DNA from: Lachnospiraceae bacterium
Lineage (GTDB): Bacteria; Bacillota_A; Clostridia; Lachnospirales; Lachnospiraceae
Length of the DNA: 21,744 nt
Assembly: GCA_017620975.1 (NCBI GenBank)
Contig: JAGAUD010000035.1
Location: 1-21,744 of the forward strand
Direction: 5' to 3'
Numbering within the stretch: the stretch's first letter is position 1; each line of letters opens with the position of its first letter. Made by a program: the position numbers and the translations under genes. The notes below the pieces were generated by a model. The model was not told the DNA's origin. It searched no databases and saw nothing but the letters and a program-made list of their open reading frames with translations. Shown here one piece after another: positions 8,645 through 16,698 of this stretch.

Positions 8645-10900
8645 ATGAAAAAGATTTCCAAGAGAATCCTCGCTCTCATGCTTGCTATGGTAATGGTAGT
8701 TGCTATGGCAGCTTGTGGCAGCAGTGATTCAAAAGAGTCTTCTGAGTCAGGTAATGCTCAGACTTCCTCAGCAGTGGAGTCTTCTACACCGGAAGTTGTA
8801 GAACCCGTTTATGAGGATGTTGATGTTGCAGACGCTGTAGAGCACAGCGACTACACTTCTGTTTACGACCAGATCGGCGCTAATGTTACCATCGATATGG
8901 TGACAGAAGATCCCGATACCGGTTTGGCTACTATTACTTATGAAGGAAAGACTTATGAAGCAGGTCTTGACTTCCTGTCCATGGCTATGGTTTATAACTG
9001 TACCCCTGCAGGTGACTATACCACAGAGGAAGAAGTTTACAACCAGTGGTGGAAGCTGTTCATCCAGAGATTCAATTACATGGCTCTGGAGGTACCTCTT
9101 TATTCCAACCAGTACTATGATCTGTACAATGCAAAGCTTGAGAACTTTGTAACCTCTCCTTACTGGAGTGCTGCATCTGCTATCGTAGGTGCAAACGTTA
9201 AGGAAGGTGTGGATAATTCCGCTATCCTTGGTTCTTCCACTGAGCTTTCCGGTGCTTTCCGTAATTCTTCATGGGGTAAATCAAATCCCGGATCTGCAGA
9301 TCTGGACATCGAAGATCTGACCAGTGGTCATTCTACTGTACAGACCGGCTTTGACGGTTCCCTGATGTGGAACATGGCAGCGCTGGCTGAGGAGCCCACC
9401 GCTGTGAAGAATGATGATGGTTCCCTTACTTACACCATCAAGGTAAAAGATGACCTGGTATTCTCTGACGGAAGCCCTATCACTGCAAAGAACTATATTG
9501 CTTATGCACTGGCTAACTCTACCGCTGTATCTGTTGCAGCAGGCGGTACCGGTATCACCGGCCTGAACTTCGTTGGATACGAAGAGTTCAAAGCTTATGA
9601 AGGCGAAGGAGATAAGGTTTATTTCGAAGGTATCAAACTGATTGACGATTATACCTTCTCTGTTACCCTGCTTCCTGAGTATGCTAACTACTATTATTCC
9701 ATTTACTACGCAGGATTCACTCCTACACCCCTGGCTCTGTACCTTGGTGAGAATGATATCGTAGTTGCTGAGAATGGTGCCTGTGGTCTGTCCGATGGCT
9801 TCTATGCGAAGACCACAAAGGATGGCGTTGATGTCTTTGCAATGGCTGACGTTATCGTTGCCAATCTGAAGTGGAATTCTGACCTTCCTTGGTCCGGTCC
9901 TTATGTAGTATCCAATTACGATGAGTCTGCTCTGATTGCAACTCTGACCAGAAATGAGAATTATCCCGGTGATGATGCTCGTGGAACTGCTTCCATCGAT
10001 ACCATTACCTATGTAAAGATCGTTTCCGAGACTCAGATGGATCAGTTCAAGAGCGGTCAGGTTGACATTTTGGCCGGTATTACCGGCGGAGAAGAGACTG
10101 ACGCAGCTCTGGCTCTTGTAAAAGAAAGTCCTGATAAATATGCTGAGACCCACTACGACCGTGCTGGTTACGGTTTCATCGGTCTTCGTTGCGACCTTGG
10201 TCCTACAAGCTTTACCTCTGTACGTCAGGCTATGATGTACACCATCAACCGTCCTGAGTTTGCACAGACCTTTACCGGCGGTTATGGTTCTGTTGTACAC
10301 GGTCCTTACTACACCGGCTATTCCGCATACAAAGCAGTTGAGGATGAAATCCTGCTGAATCAGTATGCTTACAGCTCTGACAGTGCTATTGCAGTTCTGG
10401 AAGAGGGCGGCTGGATTTACAATGACAAGGGTCAGGAATTCGTTGCTGGTACTGATGCTGTTCGTTATAAGAAGCTGGAAGGCTACGAACTGTCTCCTCA
10501 GAATATCCAGTATGCTACTGTTGACGGTGCTTACAAGACTCTGAAGATTAACGGTGAGTACTACATGCCTCTGGCAATCAACTACTACGGAACACAGCCC
10601 AACAATGTTACCGATATGCTGATTACCGCATGGCAGGCAAATGAGAATGCAACCACTAAGATCGGTGCATATATCACCTATACCTCTTGTGATTTCACAA
10701 CCGGTCTGTACGGTGAACTGCTTCAGATTGAAGAGTATGGCTGGGACGGCGTGGCTAAGCTGTGTGCAATCAACTATGCTACCGGATTTACCAGTGCTAT
10801 ATACGATATGTCCCGGAACTTTACCATTGATCCCGATATGTACGCAGATTATTCACGTGCATACGTTATGGATGAAGCTGACTTCTGGGAGAATTACTAA
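8645..10900 (+). CDS. Peptide-type ABC importer substrate-binding lipoprotein (family 5)
   Basis: Extracellular receptor of the importer encoded downstream. Residues 1-24 are a lipoprotein signal peptide with lipobox AMAAC; Cys24 would be lipidated and anchored to the membrane outer face. A Ser/Glu-rich linker (25-55) follows. The family 5 (OppA/DppA) fold is shown by LTYTIKVKDDLVFSDGSPIT (261-280), IDDYTFSVTLLPEY, PWSGPYVVSNYD, TLTRNENYPG and DQFKSGQVDILAG. At 751 aa it is longer than the usual 500-600. Residues ~130-180 (VPLYSNQYYDLYNAKLENF) resemble the motif normally at the C-terminus of this family, and the usual N-terminal segment starts only near 188, so the domain appears permuted. 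The ATG follows AAAAGGAGG. Codon use suggests high expression. The ligand (peptide or otherwise) is not known. Confidence 0.92.
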   Translation: MKKISKRILALMLAMVMVVAMAACGSSDSKESSESGNAQTSSAVESSTPEVVEPVYEDVDVADAVEHSDYTSVYDQIGANVTIDMVTEDPDTGLATITYEGKTYEAGLDFLSMAMVYNCTPAGDYTTEEEVYNQWWKLFIQRFNYMALEVPLYSNQYYDLYNAKLENFVTSPYWSAASAIVGANVKEGVDNSAILGSSTELSGAFRNSSWGKSNPGSADLDIEDLTSGHSTVQTGFDGSLMWNMAALAEEPTAVKNDDGSLTYTIKVKDDLVFSDGSPITAKNYIAYALANSTAVSVAAGGTGITGLNFVGYEEFKAYEGEGDKVYFEGIKLIDDYTFSVTLLPEYANYYYSIYYAGFTPTPLALYLGENDIVVAENGACGLSDGFYAKTTKDGVDVFAMADVIVANLKWNSDLPWSGPYVVSNYDESALIATLTRNENYPGDDARGTASIDTITYVKIVSETQMDQFKSGQVDILAGITGGEETDAALALVKESPDKYAETHYDRAGYGFIGLRCDLGPTSFTSVRQAMMYTINRPEFAQTFTGGYGSVVHGPYYTGYSAYKAVEDEILLNQYAYSSDSAIAVLEEGGWIYNDKGQEFVAGTDAVRYKKLEGYELSPQNIQYATVDGAYKTLKINGEYYMPLAINYYGTQPNNVTDMLITAWQANENATTKIGAYITYTSCDFTTGLYGELLQIEEYGWDGVAKLCAINYATGFTSAIYDMSRNFTIDPDMYADYSRAYVMDEADFWENY

Positions 10901-11090: not shown

Positions 11091-12110
11091 ATGGCAAAGT
11101 ATATTTTTAAAAGAATAATTTACATCATTGTTGTATTTTTTATCCTCTCGTTTCTGATCTTTATGATTTACAATATGCTGCCTGTAGATAAAGCTGCAGA
11201 ATCAGCGCGAGCTGAAATTACGGCTAACCGTAATTTGAATTATGAGGAAAGATACGAGTATTGGCAGAATCAATACGGAACAAACGGAACCAAGGTGGAG
11301 AGATACCTTCGTTGGCTTGGTGTGTATCCTTATTCCAACGGCACCTATAACGGATTGTTTCAGGGAAATTTAGGTACTTCCACCAAGTTTGCCAAACCGG
11401 TAAGCGAAGTGTTGATTGCACCTATGAAGAACACTGTCTTTCTGAATATTTTTGCGACGATTCTGGCTTTGGGCATAACGATTCCTCTCGGTATATTCTG
11501 TGCCGTAAAGAGGGGAAGCAAGCGTGATGTTGCAGTGCAGGTAGGTACGATAGTAGGATACAGTCTGCCGACGTTTATCATTGCCATAGTGTTCATCTGG
11601 CTGTTTGCCGTTGTGTTGGGGTGGTTCCCTGTCTCCGGTATGCAGACAGCAGGCAGTCTGAACTGGTCTCCCTGGAGACAGTTCTGGGACAGAATGTATC
11701 ACATGGCGTTGCCCTTGATCGTCATGACATTTGCATCCTTGGGTGGTATGACCCGTTATGTCCGTGCTGCCATGATCGAGGCTCTGAGTATGGATTGTAT
11801 CCGTACAGCCAGAGCAAAGGGGCTTAAGGAGAAGGTAGTTATTTATTCTCATGCATGGCGTAATGCCTTACTTCCGATTATCACACTGGTGATCGGATGG
11901 TTCTTGGGTATCTTTGGCGGTTCCCTGATGATTGAGAATATTTTTGCACTGAATGGTCTGGGTAAGATTTATTATGATGCACTGATGGGAAATGACAACG
12001 AGATTATTCTGGCTTTACAGATGTTCTATATCAGTTTATCTCTGTTTGGTAACCTGTTGATTGATGTGGTCTATGGCTTTGTAGATCCCCGTGTCCGTGT
12101 CAATAAGTAA
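11091..12110 (+). CDS. oppB: Peptide-type ABC importer permease, OppB/DppB-like
   Basis: First transmembrane subunit of the importer, 339 aa. TM1 is residues 9-29, followed by an unusually long extracellular loop (about 30-105) that ends in LFQGNLGTSTKFAKPVSEVL, the family's conserved segment before TM2. Further hydrophobic segments lie at about 115-135, 155-180, 205-220, 263-283 and 305-330. The cytoplasmic EAA loop that docks to the ATPase is seen as DCIRTARAKGLKEKVVIYSH (235-254), and the C-terminus has the typical VYGFVDPRVRVN. The ATG at 11091 follows GGAGG by six bases; the GTG three bases upstream is less likely. It is 13 bases from oppC. The symbol is by family resemblance; dpp or app naming is equally possible. 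Confidence 0.93.
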   Translation: MAKYIFKRIIYIIVVFFILSFLIFMIYNMLPVDKAAESARAEITANRNLNYEERYEYWQNQYGTNGTKVERYLRWLGVYPYSNGTYNGLFQGNLGTSTKFAKPVSEVLIAPMKNTVFLNIFATILALGITIPLGIFCAVKRGSKRDVAVQVGTIVGYSLPTFIIAIVFIWLFAVVLGWFPVSGMQTAGSLNWSPWRQFWDRMYHMALPLIVMTFASLGGMTRYVRAAMIEALSMDCIRTARAKGLKEKVVIYSHAWRNALLPIITLVIGWFLGIFGGSLMIENIFALNGLGKIYYDALMGNDNEIILALQMFYISLSLFGNLLIDVVYGFVDPRVRVNK

Positions 12111-12123
12111 GGAGGGCAGTATT

Positions 12124-14076
12124 ATGAGTAAAAATAATAAAATCAGTGCTGCCGTAAAAGGCGTTTTCGCTACTCTCTGGCTCTGGCTGAAACGGGCATT
12201 CTTCGGTGCAGGCAGGGAGCTTGCAGATGATGAGCGTTTTACTGTTGAGAAGATAGAGAGTCCCTCTATCATGGCGGTCAAGGCTTTTTTCCGCCGCAAG
12301 CTTGCAGTAGTTGCTCTGATCGTTCTGGTTTCCATGTTTTTGTTTGTATTCATTGGGCCGTACTTTTTCCCCATGGATCTGAATTACACAGATCCTCTGC
12401 AGGCGAATATGGCACCTAATAATACACTGATGAAGGTTCCCTCTGAACTGGAGGATAATATCAGGAATATTAACGGTTTTTCTGATTTTACCATAGGCGT
12501 CAGCCAGGATGATACTCTTTATCTCTGGGGAAATACTAAGAATAATCTGACCAATGTAGATTATACCGATTTCCCTGATGAAATTCAGGCGGGTAAGGTG
12601 GCATATGCATCTGCAGGCTCTGATCATATCATTGCAATTACCACAGACGGCAAGGTTGTAGGCTGGGGGAACAGCAGTAACGGTCAGTTTGGCGTTAAGA
12701 AGCAGGAATCGGATCCTTATACCCAGATGCCGGATGAATTGTTGAACGGCACTATTGATGTATCTCAGGTGAAGCAACTGATTTGTGGCTATCAGGTAAC
12801 TGCTCTTGTAATGGAAGACGGTCATATGTATATGTGGGGTAATAACAATGCCATGCTGAGTCTGCCGGAATTTACCAAGAGTGACAAATATAACACAGAT
12901 GTTGAGAAGGTTGCTTTCTCTAATTATTATGCAATTATCATGCGTAAGGACGGTACAGTAACCGGCGGACAGACATTGACCTTTAATATGCAGTCAGCTT
13001 ATTCCAACAAGGATGGTCAGATCAAGAATCTCCGTTCCTATATGACCGACCGTACGGTTATTGATATTGCAGCTACCAACAACTGCTATGCTTTTATTAT
13101 GGATGACGGAAGTATTGTGTCATTCGGTGCTGCCGAATATGGTGAGAAAGATATCCCTGCTAGTACAACGGAGGAGAAGATGGTATCCATTTCGGCAGGT
13201 ACCAGACACTTTGTAGCAGTAGGTGAAAGCGGAAAGGTATATACCTGGGGACACAACGACGGCGGTCAGTGTGATGTGGCAGGGGAAACAACAGATCATG
13301 TATTTGTCGGTGCAAAACAGACCTATCTGGTAAATGCAGAAGGAGAACTGACAGAAAAGTCCGGGTTTACAGGTCATATTATGGGAACAGACAGCAGAGG
13401 CCGTGATATCCTTACACGTATCGTTCACGGAGGAAAGATGACCATGACCATCGGTGCGGTGGCAGTAATTGTATCGACAATTATTGCGATTATCATTGGA
13501 TGTCTGTCAGGATATTTCGGTGGCTGGGTGGATATGCTGCTGATGCGTATCACGGAAATTTTCTCTTCAATTCCGTTCCTGCCCTTTGCAATGATGCTTT
13601 CCTATGTCATCCGTACGATGCCCATAGGGGAGACTGTCCGAATATTTATTATTATGATCATGCTGGGTCTGCTAAGTTGGACCGGATTGGCTCGTATGAT
13701 ACGTGCACAGGTTTTGGCAGAACGTGAGAAGGAATTTGTGCTTGCAGCCAAATCCATGGGTATAAAGGAAAAACGAATTGCGTTTATGCATATTTTGCCG
13801 AATGTCATTTCCATTATTCTGGTTAATGTTACTTTGGACTTTGCTACCTGTATGCTGACAGAGTCCTCACTGTCCTATCTGGGATTTGGTGTTCAGCAGC
13901 CTCAGCCTACCTGGGGTAATATGCTTTATGGTGCGAACAATTCCATCGTCATCCAGAATTACTGGTGGCAGTGGGTGTTCCCGGCGATTTTCCTGTCAAT
14001 TGCTACAATTAGTATTAACATTATTGGTGATACCCTGCGTGATGTTCTTGATCCTAAGAGCAGCCAGGAGAAATAA
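12124..14076 (+). CDS. oppC: Peptide-type ABC importer permease, OppC/DppC-like, with inserted seven-repeat RCC1-like propeller
   Basis: Second transmembrane subunit, 650 aa against about 300 usual. The OppC N-terminal part has a cytoplasmic segment (1-57) and TM1 (about 58-80). The permease core resumes at GTDSRGRDILTRIVHGG (421-437), with TM segments beyond and the EAA loop EKEFVLAAKSMGIKEKRIAF (535-554). Between them, residues ~115-415 hold seven RCC1-like repeats, each ending in a hairpin such as DGKVVGWGNSSNGQFG; they start near 121, 167, 225, 259, 322, 362 and 399. Seven matches the blade number of an RCC1 propeller. The insert replaces the first extracytoplasmic loop, so it should sit outside beside the receptor. 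The frame is continuous, so this is not an assembly fusion of two genes. The ATG follows GGAGG by eight bases. The propeller's role is unknown. Confidence 0.92.
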   Translation: MSKNNKISAAVKGVFATLWLWLKRAFFGAGRELADDERFTVEKIESPSIMAVKAFFRRKLAVVALIVLVSMFLFVFIGPYFFPMDLNYTDPLQANMAPNNTLMKVPSELEDNIRNINGFSDFTIGVSQDDTLYLWGNTKNNLTNVDYTDFPDEIQAGKVAYASAGSDHIIAITTDGKVVGWGNSSNGQFGVKKQESDPYTQMPDELLNGTIDVSQVKQLICGYQVTALVMEDGHMYMWGNNNAMLSLPEFTKSDKYNTDVEKVAFSNYYAIIMRKDGTVTGGQTLTFNMQSAYSNKDGQIKNLRSYMTDRTVIDIAATNNCYAFIMDDGSIVSFGAAEYGEKDIPASTTEEKMVSISAGTRHFVAVGESGKVYTWGHNDGGQCDVAGETTDHVFVGAKQTYLVNAEGELTEKSGFTGHIMGTDSRGRDILTRIVHGGKMTMTIGAVAVIVSTIIAIIIGCLSGYFGGWVDMLLMRITEIFSSIPFLPFAMMLSYVIRTMPIGETVRIFIIMIMLGLLSWTGLARMIRAQVLAEREKEFVLAAKSMGIKEKRIAFMHILPNVISIILVNVTLDFATCMLTESSLSYLGFGVQQPQPTWGNMLYGANNSIVIQNYWWQWVFPAIFLSIATISINIIGDTLRDVLDPKSSQEK

Positions 14077-14093: not shown

Positions 14094-15113
14094 ATGAATT
14101 TATTAGAAGTAAAAAACCTTCATACGTATTTCAAAACTAGAAAAGGTACCGTTAAGGCGGTTAATGATGTTTCCTATGCGTTGGAACCGGGCAAGACGAT
14201 AGGTATCGTAGGTGAGTCGGGTTCCGGAAAGTCTGTATCTGCCATGAGCATTTTACAGCTTCTGGATGGAAATGGATATATTGCTGAAGGAGAGGTGCTG
14301 TTTGAAGGTCGGGATCTGACAAAATTAAGTCAGCAGGAGATGTATGAGATTCGCGGAAATAAAATTTCTGTAATCTTCCAGGAGCCTATGACCAGTCTTA
14401 ACCCTGTATTTACAATTAAGCGACAGCTAAGTGAGCCTTTCATGATTCATCAGAAGATGAAGAAGAAGGAGGCAGAGAAGAAGGCTCTGGAAATGCTTGC
14501 TGCTGTCCAGATACCAAATCCGGAGGCTGTGCTTAGGCAGTATCCTCATCAGTTATCAGGCGGTATGCGTCAGCGTGTCATGATTGCTATGGCTCTGGCC
14601 TGCAAACCGAAGATTCTTATTGCAGATGAGCCTACTACAGCTCTCGATGTAACTATCCAGGCTCAGATTCTGCGTCTGATGAACGATCTGCAGCGGGAGA
14701 ATGGAACAGCAATTATTTTCATTACTCATGACTTGGGCGTAATCAATGAGATGGCTGATGATGTTGTGGTAATGTATTGCGGTCAGGTGGTAGAGCAGAC
14801 CTCTGCAAAGACAATATTTACGGATTGCCCTACCAGCCATCCCTACACAGAGGGATTGATGAATTCTATTCCTCGTATTGACAATATTACCGGCAAGCTT
14901 GAGCCTATTCCCGGTGTGGTGCCTCATCCTCTGGCACTGCCGAAGGGATGTAAATTTGCGCCGAGATGTAAATATGCAACACAGAAATGTATGGAGCAGG
15001 AGCCTGAGCTGTTGGAAGTAGTACCAGGGCAGAAGGTTCGTTGTTTCTATCCCAAGAAGGAGGTGCGCTGCAGTGAAGAACACAGAAAAGCTGTTATCAA
15101 TCACGAATCTTAA
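14094..15113 (+). CDS. oppD: Peptide-type ABC importer ATP-binding protein, OppD/DppD-like
   Basis: First ATPase subunit, cytoplasmic, 339 aa, a normal length. Motifs in order: Walker A GESGSGKS (40-47), Q-loop FQEPMTSLNP (Gln96), signature LSGGM (154-158), Walker B ILIADEP (174-180) and H-loop His212 in FITHD. The C-terminal region CKFAPRCKYATQKC with a later Cys in VRCFYP is the four-cysteine pattern that in this subfamily can bind an iron-sulfur cluster. The ATG follows GGAGG by seven bases, 17 bases after oppC. The 3' end overlaps the oppF start by 41 bases, which implies coupled translation of the two ATPases. Confidence 0.95.
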   Translation: MNLLEVKNLHTYFKTRKGTVKAVNDVSYALEPGKTIGIVGESGSGKSVSAMSILQLLDGNGYIAEGEVLFEGRDLTKLSQQEMYEIRGNKISVIFQEPMTSLNPVFTIKRQLSEPFMIHQKMKKKEAEKKALEMLAAVQIPNPEAVLRQYPHQLSGGMRQRVMIAMALACKPKILIADEPTTALDVTIQAQILRLMNDLQRENGTAIIFITHDLGVINEMADDVVVMYCGQVVEQTSAKTIFTDCPTSHPYTEGLMNSIPRIDNITGKLEPIPGVVPHPLALPKGCKFAPRCKYATQKCMEQEPELLEVVPGQKVRCFYPKKEVRCSEEHRKAVINHES

Positions 15114-16698
15114 AAAGTATTTTCCCATTGCAAAGACCAGCATCTTCCAGAAGGAACAGCTTTATGTCCGCGCAAATGAGGATATAACCATTGATATCAA
15201 GAACGGAGAAACATTTGGCCTTGTAGGAGAGTCCGGCTGTGGTAAATCCACACTTGGCCGTACTCTGCTGCAGCTCTATGATCAGACTGCCGGAAGCACG
15301 TTGTATTATGGACGTACGCTCGAAGAATTTGCACCTTCTTATGTAGAGGAAACATTACGGAATGCGCCGAAGATGATCGCTAACTATAAGAAGATGCAGG
15401 CAAAAGCAGCAGCAGCGGCGGCAGAATGTGAGAATGCAGGCGAGAATGCAACCTTTTTCCAGCATCAGACAAAGAACCTGCTTGAGGCAGAAGCAGAGAC
15501 TGCATTCCAGAATGTTGTAAAGATCATGGGTGGTTTTGCATCTCTGGATAACTGTACAGAGGGTGCAAAGGTGCTGCTGAAGAAGTTCAAAACGAATGTA
15601 AAGCTCAGTAAGCTGAACGACCAGATTCGCGACCTGGACGGAGAAATTGCTTTTCATGAAGCTGTGGCAAAAGAATTGCAGGAAGATCCTTCCGTGAAAA
15701 ATTCTGCAGCCAGGGTTACTAAGGAGTTGAAGAAGGCTGAGGCAGTTCGGGCAAAAAGAGAGAAGCTTATGCCTGAAACAGAACAGCTGAAAGCAGTTCT
15801 TAGAGATGATGAAAAGGCAGTTGCTGATTTAAAGAGCAAATATGCGGATAATGAAGAGTTTTGCAAGTACGAGGCAATGCTTGACAGCGGTATTGATTTA
15901 AGCAGACTGAAATATGATGAGATGCGCCTTTTGCGTAAGGATATCCAGATTATTTTCCAGGATCCTTATTCCTCGTTAAATCCCCGTATGACAGTGGGAC
16001 AGATTATCGGTGAGGGACTGACGACCCATAAATTCTTTAAAGCCGGTGATCCTAAGATGAAGGATTACATTATTGGAATCATGGAGCAGTGTGGATTGCA
16101 GGATTATATGCTGCATCGCTATCCCCACCAGTTCTCCGGCGGTCAGCGTCAGCGTATCTGTATTGCCCGTGCATTGGCGGTTAAGCCTAAGTTTATTGTG
16201 TGTGACGAATGTGTTTCCGCGTTGGATGTGTCGATTCAGTCCCAGATAATTAACTTGCTTGAGGAACTGAAAGAGAAAGAAAAATTGACTTACCTGTTTA
16301 TTTCTCATGATTTGTCCGTTGTACGTTATATTTCTGACCGTATCGGAGTTATGTATTTGGGTAATATGGTTGAGCTTGGCACTGCAGAAGAAGTATTCTC
16401 AGATCCTCGTCATCCATATACGGTGGCCCTGCTGTCTTCCATTCCTACCACAGATGCCAATGCAGATAAAAAGGAGCGGATTATCCTGGAAGGAAATATT
16501 CCCAGTCCGATTCGTCCGCCGGAAGGATGTAAGTTCCACACACGCTGCTATATGGCCTGCGATAAGTGTAAGGTAGTTCCACCGCCATATGTAGAGGTGA
16601 ATCCCGGTCATTTTGTTGCTTGTCATTTCCTGGATAAGAAGATTGATGAGAATGGAAATTATTTGTTTGAGCATTCGGGGAAATCTACGGAGAATTAA
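15073..16698 (+). CDS. oppF: Peptide-type ABC importer ATP-binding protein, OppF-like, with ~200-residue helical insertion
   Basis: Second ATPase subunit, 541 aa against about 320 usual. Walker A is GESGCGKS (52-59). The usual next segment, a short loop leading to [19 protein letters not shown] (287-305, Q-loop Gln296), is displaced by about 200 residues (82-282) rich in Ala, Glu and Lys, with an Ala-rich run and coiled-coil-like heptads ([28 protein letters not shown]). The rest is standard: FSGGQRQR (354-361), Walker B with DEC in place of the usual DEP (378-380), His412, and C-terminal cysteines 486, 492, 496, 499 and 517. The GTG start is supported by AAGGAGG nine bases upstream, inside oppD. 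The insert should project from the nucleotide-binding domain into the cytoplasm. Its function is unknown. Confidence 0.93.

Follow-up and report, generated by a model that had tools for sequence, protein, structure and literature searches.

What can a seven-bladed propeller do inside the membrane subunit of a bacterial importer? The question is raised by a 21,744-nucleotide stretch of DNA from a Lachnospiraceae bacterium (assembly GCA_017620975.1, contig JAGAUD010000035.1), here called the window, by which the whole stretch is meant. An Opp-type operon on its + strand encodes a substrate-binding protein (SBP), the permeases OppB and OppC and the ATPases OppD and OppF, and the OppC contains a predicted RCC1-type propeller between its first and second transmembrane segments (TM1 and TM2). 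This propeller OppC is a standing subfamily, conserved in many uncultured gut Clostridia, rather than a lone fusion, and its operon represents an apparently undescribed form of Opp/Dpp-type (type I) ATP-binding cassette (ABC) importer. As for its role, we read the propeller, with confidence that stands at about even, as a platform built into the permease on which the lipoprotein SBP of the same operon docks and is coupled.

The gene is a single continuous frame of 650 amino acids (aa), as a first-pass annotation of the window had held, with an ATG at 12124 preceded by AGGAGG and a stop codon ending at 14076. Both Pfam domains that define the C subunit of Opp/Dpp permeases exceed their cut-offs, OppC_N at residues 47-98 (40.1 bits, cut-off 23.9) and BPD_transp_1 at residues 455-645 (109.1 bits, cut-off 26.4), and residues 416-646 align to Escherichia coli OppC (8z21_B, E 5.5e-51). 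No named NCBIfam equivalog fits: the top model, Opp4C, scores 302.5 bits against a cut-off of 350, and the other listed models score further below theirs. The strongest hydrophobic segment, TM1, stops at residue 78, and about 338 aa separate TM1 from the core. The TM1-TM2 loop measures 299-351 aa in all 95 relatives measured, compared with 19-57 aa in 17 of 19 short-loop controls and 94 and 99 aa in the other two. Some of the frames begin upstream of the true start, so the protein lengths quoted here are upper bounds. One relative is annotated in its source merely as an 'ABC transporter permease subunit'.

The first-pass annotation had recognized RCC1-like repeats in this loop and proposed a profile search, a structure prediction and a homologue survey as checks; all three bore it out. 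In Pfam, RCC1_2 reaches 97.4 bits (cut-off 22) and RCC1 49.4 bits (cut-off 21.7), with RCC1-type matches beginning at residue 105, and the whole-domain model WD40_RLD stays under its threshold (124.5 against 150). In sequence searches residues 147-240 match UVR8 and residues 311-390 match BLIP-II. The predicted structure has seven three-strand repeats across residues 113-414, although blade 4 has a third strand of just two residues, and the predicted local distance difference test score (pLDDT), averaged per ten-residue block, is 82-95 over residues 111-410 and 76 for 411-420. Whole-ring structural alignments to UVR8 and BLIP-II indicate that the modeled insert is a closed, seven-bladed ring. 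The proposed span, 12460-13375, corresponds to residues 113-417 and agrees with the modeled propeller. Since the second strands begin at residues 122, 168, 225, 269, 321, 362 and 399, six of the proposed repeat positions (121, 167, 225, 322, 362 and 399) stand, while the seventh, 259, should be moved to about 269. A chance or low-complexity repeat was ruled out, as Tandem Repeats Finder reported no more than an 11-base unit present twice within 12300-13500; nor is the domain due to chance, because RCC1_2 is found at E <= 0.001 in all 96 inserts scanned. A fusion created by a frame artefact or misassembly was likewise rejected, given near-identical full-length proteins in several sources and an operon that is kept, in the order A-B-C-D-F, in all 77 complete loci among the 92 collected.

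The family is large. A protein search, which scored just the 7996 candidates with the most words in common, gave 1933 relatives at E <= 1e-20, and 120 of 120 among the matches listed carry RCC1_2 and BPD_transp_1. Scanning a collection with one genome per species gave at least 523 relatives among 596 candidate stretches. Metagenome-assembled or uncultured organisms make up 79 of the best 80 of these, with animal gut sites named in many titles, and the taxa named are Clostridia, Clostridiales or Eubacteriales, Lachnospiraceae, Oscillospiraceae and others, with two given as Bacillota only; the sole isolate is Acetatifactor muris DSM 23669, with two copies. Four draws within the phylum, which overlap and each contain their center genome, gave matches at E <= 1e-90 as follows: 14 among 398 genomes taken from the phylum, 8 among 250 from the family to which A. 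muris belongs, 23 among 245 from the order that includes Candidatus Limivicinus (three of these matches spanning just part of the model) and 21 among 248 from the order that includes Christensenellaceae Phil1. Among the scanned inserts, whose bearers were picked by full-length similarity, RCC1 matches 91 of 96, and models of other propellers, Tectonin and Kelch among them, each hit 1 to 4 members. When a tree was built from the OppC membrane core, its 34 propeller rows (29 of them selected by hand to spread across the 92 loci) formed one clade with support 100/99, recovered in 100% of 200 bootstrap trees, which shows that the rows treed share a single origin. Because L077 and L097 are one and the same contig, these 34 rows, like the 82 SBP rows below, include one duplicate.

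Could the insert be a tolerated passenger without a role in transport? Neighboring OppCs accept unrelated inserts in the same loop, of 153 (L117, L118), 221 (L116), 277 (L115) and 293 aa (L114), and other neighbors have 22-57 aa there (55-57 in L112 and L113, 22 in L119 and L120). In addition, P0072, a 590-aa protein that is 1 of 40 aligned homologues, lacks about one blade, as either a natural six-bladed variant or an assembly error may explain, and three profile matches are partial: G852:C76, G821:C128 and G692:C108, covering positions 187-632, 6-487 and 22-499 of 635, the last starting at contig base 1. Against this, the propeller clade holds no short-loop row, its rows having mostly been chosen by full-length similarity, and loop length and RCC1_2 matches are retained down to 21% insert identity. 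Losses inside the clade would be under-counted, since most genomes and loci came from searches that used the propeller family as the query. A less biased search with the membrane core alone found OppC-type matches in 34 of 60 genomes drawn from the class; 12 places were fetched, and the four genomes with cores at least 61% identical (G001, G1148, G1158 and G1172, three of them checked) all have these cores in frames of 615-672 aa. We therefore regard a mere passenger as highly improbable. The same search returned two distant cores (about 30% identical), G1179:C15:28173-28850 and G1142:C15:22568-23239, in frames of 633 and 537 aa, which possibly hold further inserts or upstream extensions.

The neighboring inserts are of interest in their own right. 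They lie in L114:6291-8123, L115:472-2214, L116:5731-7320, L117:5494-6813 and L118:4358-5680, are not of RCC1 type, and matched no Pfam family. The inserts of L114 and L116 can be aligned with one another in two registers that overlap (E about 6e-12 and 7e-12), which suggests that they hold internal repeats. L119 and L120 branch from the same fork as the clade L112-L118, and all three are candidate sisters of the propeller clade. By eye, the propeller enters after an NxAPxxS stretch and exits directly into an LMGTD stretch, and the neighbors' inserts precede a PPSxxHxLGTD-like stretch. If these different positions hold, the insertions would be independent, and the TM1-TM2 loop of OppC therefore looks like an insertion hotspot. 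The operons of L112 and L113 also have extended frames, with OppF of 444 and 510 aa and OppD of 392 and 429 aa.

The position of the propeller narrows down what it can act on. Pfam domain positions and the model place it in the first outer loop, between TM1 and the GTDSRGRD motif, where it had first been proposed to lie. In DppABCDF, the permeases DppB and DppC each have a periplasmic TM1-TM2 region and are both capped by DppA (PMC12136057), and by this family analogy, which also upholds the original suggestion of a domain outside the cell, the propeller would be extracytoplasmic. Guanine-nucleotide exchange, the activity of RCC1 itself, is not expected there. Two linker prolines, P98 and P106, are invariant in both an 81-row homologue alignment and the 96-row insert alignment, and the last strand ends six residues ahead of GTDxxGRD; the mount is therefore probably rigid.

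The strongest pointer to a partner comes from correlated evolution. Across 77 systems, with the distances of the OppC core, OppD and OppF core regressed out, the residuals of propeller and SBP correlate at r 0.56, and 0 of 999 permutations were as high. With polynomial controls in 60 systems, the propeller-SBP correlation is 0.56 (0.44 on ranks), compared with 0.13 (0.01 on ranks) between the propeller and a roughly 200-aa insert in OppF, which evolves as fast as the propeller and served as the comparison control. When OppB is removed too, these 60 systems still give 0.40 (0.30 on ranks; 0 of 999 permutations each) for propeller and SBP and 0.10 (0.03 on ranks; 12 and 204 of 999) for propeller and OppF insert. 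The N-terminal part of the SBP (residues 57-195), in an alignment that mixes permuted and unpermuted forms, correlates weakly with the propeller (0.14, 6 of 999). The pattern favors docking or coupling, without proving contact, and it indicates the SBP rather than a third party. That the propeller instead binds another protein or an envelope component, such as a surface protease or cell-wall polymer, and so anchors the importer near the source of its substrate, is for this reason an unlikely account.

A slightly better, though still poor, chance is given to a ligand-binding module, in which the hub or top face would capture a substrate or cue and pre-select the cargo of the pore. Polar hub-turn residues are constant in 81 homologues (D167, Q224 and Q399 invariant, H168 and H362 nearly so), but just two of them, Q399 and H168, remain at 90% or more across the 96 rows of the broader alignment, and residues of GxxH-type turns are structural in RCC1 repeats as well. 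In L081, one profile alignment sets Ala opposite the first Asp in the ADYNDP stretch of a canonical SBP, the residue that binds the peptide amine in OppA; an unusual substrate is a lead only. Moreover, the importer already has its SBP gene next to OppC in 86 of the 92 loci, the other six being on contigs that start at most 1.7 kb upstream of OppC.

Over these rivals we favor a scaffold for docking and coupling, because of the TM1-TM2 position, the linker, the propeller-SBP correlation and the precedent of MalF-P2. In such a mechanism, the propeller would enter through the proline-bearing linker after TM1 and be held rigidly beside the translocation mouth, where it would contact the docked SBP. 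It could then relay the state of the SBP to the TM2 end of the permease, through the GTDxxGRD segment ahead of TM2, as is thought for MalF-P2 and MalE. Several observations weigh against this reading. When conservation is compared by propeller face, the conserved blade residues mostly coincide with RCC1 structural positions. RCC1 repeats keep these residues for structure, so no docking face stands out. Model confidence in the transmembrane part is low (block means 30-69), and the orientation of the propeller to the membrane is thus not fixed by the model. Before OppB is removed, its residuals correlate with those of the propeller (0.44) and the SBP (0.52), so the signal is not unique; this is expected if all three meet outside, and equally if they share another cause. 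Correlation between distances does not amount to contact, and can also arise when surface proteins come under shared selection. Finally, the known E. coli contact of such a kind, a scoop in the TM1-TM2 region that enters the cleft of DppA, belongs to DppB, not DppC (PMC12136057).

Table 1. Features of the propeller importer operon in the window (residue numbers refer to the respective protein).
Feature	Position	Strand	Basis or detail
Lipoprotein SBP, 751 aa, circularly permuted	8645..10900	+	SBP_bac_5; lipobox by eye; model pLDDT 91.6
SBP segment, residues 108-186, C-terminal in unpermuted relatives	8966..9202	+	Hidden Markov model (HMM) of relatives' C-terminal segment, E 2.1e-23
OppB-type permease	11091..12110	+	Pfam, NCBIfam
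OppC-type permease with inserted RCC1-type propeller	12124..14076	+	650 aa; Pfam, sequence matches, predicted structure
OppC_N (cytoplasmic end and TM1), residues 47-98	12262..12417	+	Pfam PF12911
Linker from TM1 to propeller, residues 82-112, with P98 and P106	12367..12459	+	Alignment invariance
Seven-bladed RCC1-type propeller (predicted), residues 113-414	12460..13365	+	Pfam, predicted structure, structural alignments
Blade 1, residues 113-158	12460..12597	+	DSSP on model; boundaries set by authors
Blade 2, residues 159-215	12598..12768	+	DSSP on model; boundaries set by authors
Blade 3, residues 216-259	12769..12900	+	DSSP on model; boundaries set by authors
Blade 4, residues 260-311, lowest conservation, two-residue third strand	12901..13056	+	DSSP; conservation
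Blade 5, residues 312-352	13057..13179	+	DSSP on model; boundaries set by authors
Blade 6, residues 353-391	13180..13296	+	DSSP on model; boundaries set by authors
Blade 7, residues 392-414	13297..13365	+	DSSP on model; boundaries set by authors
GTDSRGRD motif, residues 421-428	13384..13407	+	Six residues past last propeller strand
BPD_transp_1 membrane core, residues 455-645	13486..14058	+	Pfam; E. coli OppC match 416-646
OppD-type ATPase	14094..15113	+	Pfam, NCBIfam
OppF-type ATPase with insert, 541 aa, putative GTG start	15073..16698	+	Pfam, NCBIfam
OppF insert, about 200 aa, Walker A to Q-loop	15310..15912	+	Walker A-FQDP distance 243; alignment

The OppF insert had been suggested to accompany the propeller, and the association is real but loose. 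The distance from Walker A to FQDP is 243 in the window and 47-55 in 10 of 10 measured OppFs of control operons, in which, as in 7 of 7 in L114-L120, the insert was not found. It is present in 69 of 84 measured propeller loci, three of them with short versions (L019, L023 and L026, 145-158), and missing (distance below 100) in 15. On the tree, from which L022 and L029 were left out, four changes are required, and the absences fall into one clade, which also contains the three short versions and keeps the propeller without the full insert, plus L038. In the 398-genome sample, 14 genomes have the insert at E <= 1e-30, and 13 of these also have the propeller; four more matches are weak (E 8e-7 to 3e-6) and were taken for coiled-coil matches. 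The G357 contig stops before D and F. In G192 (L095:7218-9756), OppD and an insert-bearing OppF stand without neighboring A-B-C genes, flanked by kbl/tdh-like genes on one side and a BMP-type nucleoside importer on the other (names by eye), and no propeller OppC was found at E <= 1e-90. An obligatory pairing is ruled out by the 15 loci and by G192.

Among 82 rows from L001-L098 the SBP is circularly permuted relative to OppA/DppA in 51 and unpermuted in 30. The locus L048, which has a broken SBP frame, was excluded from the correlation, permutation and insert-tree analyses and counts among the 77 operon-order loci; the genes classified in the loci were those related to A, B, C, D or F. An extra N-terminal domain, considered as an explanation for the length of the protein, was partly dropped, since residues 108-186 are the displaced C-terminal segment; residues from about 55 to 107 are unaccounted for. 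The HMM of the displaced segment matched none of the 14 canonical SBPs tested, so its tie to these rests on profile alignment. A second, different permutation, with signal peptide and lipobox retained, occurs in one metagenome assembly (L068:1631-3832). Two neighboring SBP copies of 672 and 661 aa lie in L122:10919-15434, and a duplication of this type is a possible route to permutation.

Taken together, these observations allow a broader proposal, about which we have more doubt than conviction: a class of Opp-type importers with a rebuilt extracellular reception side, with the propeller in one OppC lineage, other modules in the same loop of its neighbor, an SBP permuted at least twice in ways that move its membrane tether, and docking through an OppC platform rather than mainly through an OppB scoop. 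The outer face of ABC importers is usually drawn as minimal; a propeller preserved in a constant operon, different domains in that loop of a neighboring lineage and an SBP permuted more than once mark it as an evolutionary construction site. Two testable questions follow, namely how the SBP is coupled to the gate in type I importers and what the gut Clostridia system carries; as the propeller domain is modular, deletion and binding tests should be simple.

A literature search, which did not include most subscription journals, found no description of an RCC1 propeller in an Opp-type permease, in line with the first impression that the fusion is undescribed. The closest known parallel to the permuted SBP is Tp0684 (MglB-2) of Treponema pallidum, likewise a circularly permuted lipoprotein SBP but a glucose-binding relative of MglB and not of OppA/DppA type, with no permease named in the abstract (PMC4990184). 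OppC and DppC of E. coli and Mycobacterium tuberculosis (8z21, 8z1v, 8j5s and 8wda) have about 290-300 aa in total, whereas the window OppC spends about 338 aa between TM1 and core. Other RCC1-like propellers, such as UVR8, RCC1, the RCC1-like domains of HERC2 and RPGR, and the bacterial BLIP-II, occur as soluble proteins or within proteins of other kinds; here the propeller is spliced inside a permease. MalF-P2 differs from an RCC1-type propeller in both loop and fold. Like the propeller, it is an extracytoplasmic insertion in just one of the permease subunits of its type I importer, but its size differs (residues 91-271), and a part of it is reported to contact MalE directly (PMC3150292), where contact between propeller and SBP is our inference. 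The DppB scoop is similarly an extracytoplasmic TM1-TM2 segment acting on the SBP, but it lies in the other permease subunit and consists of about 30 residues, not a domain.
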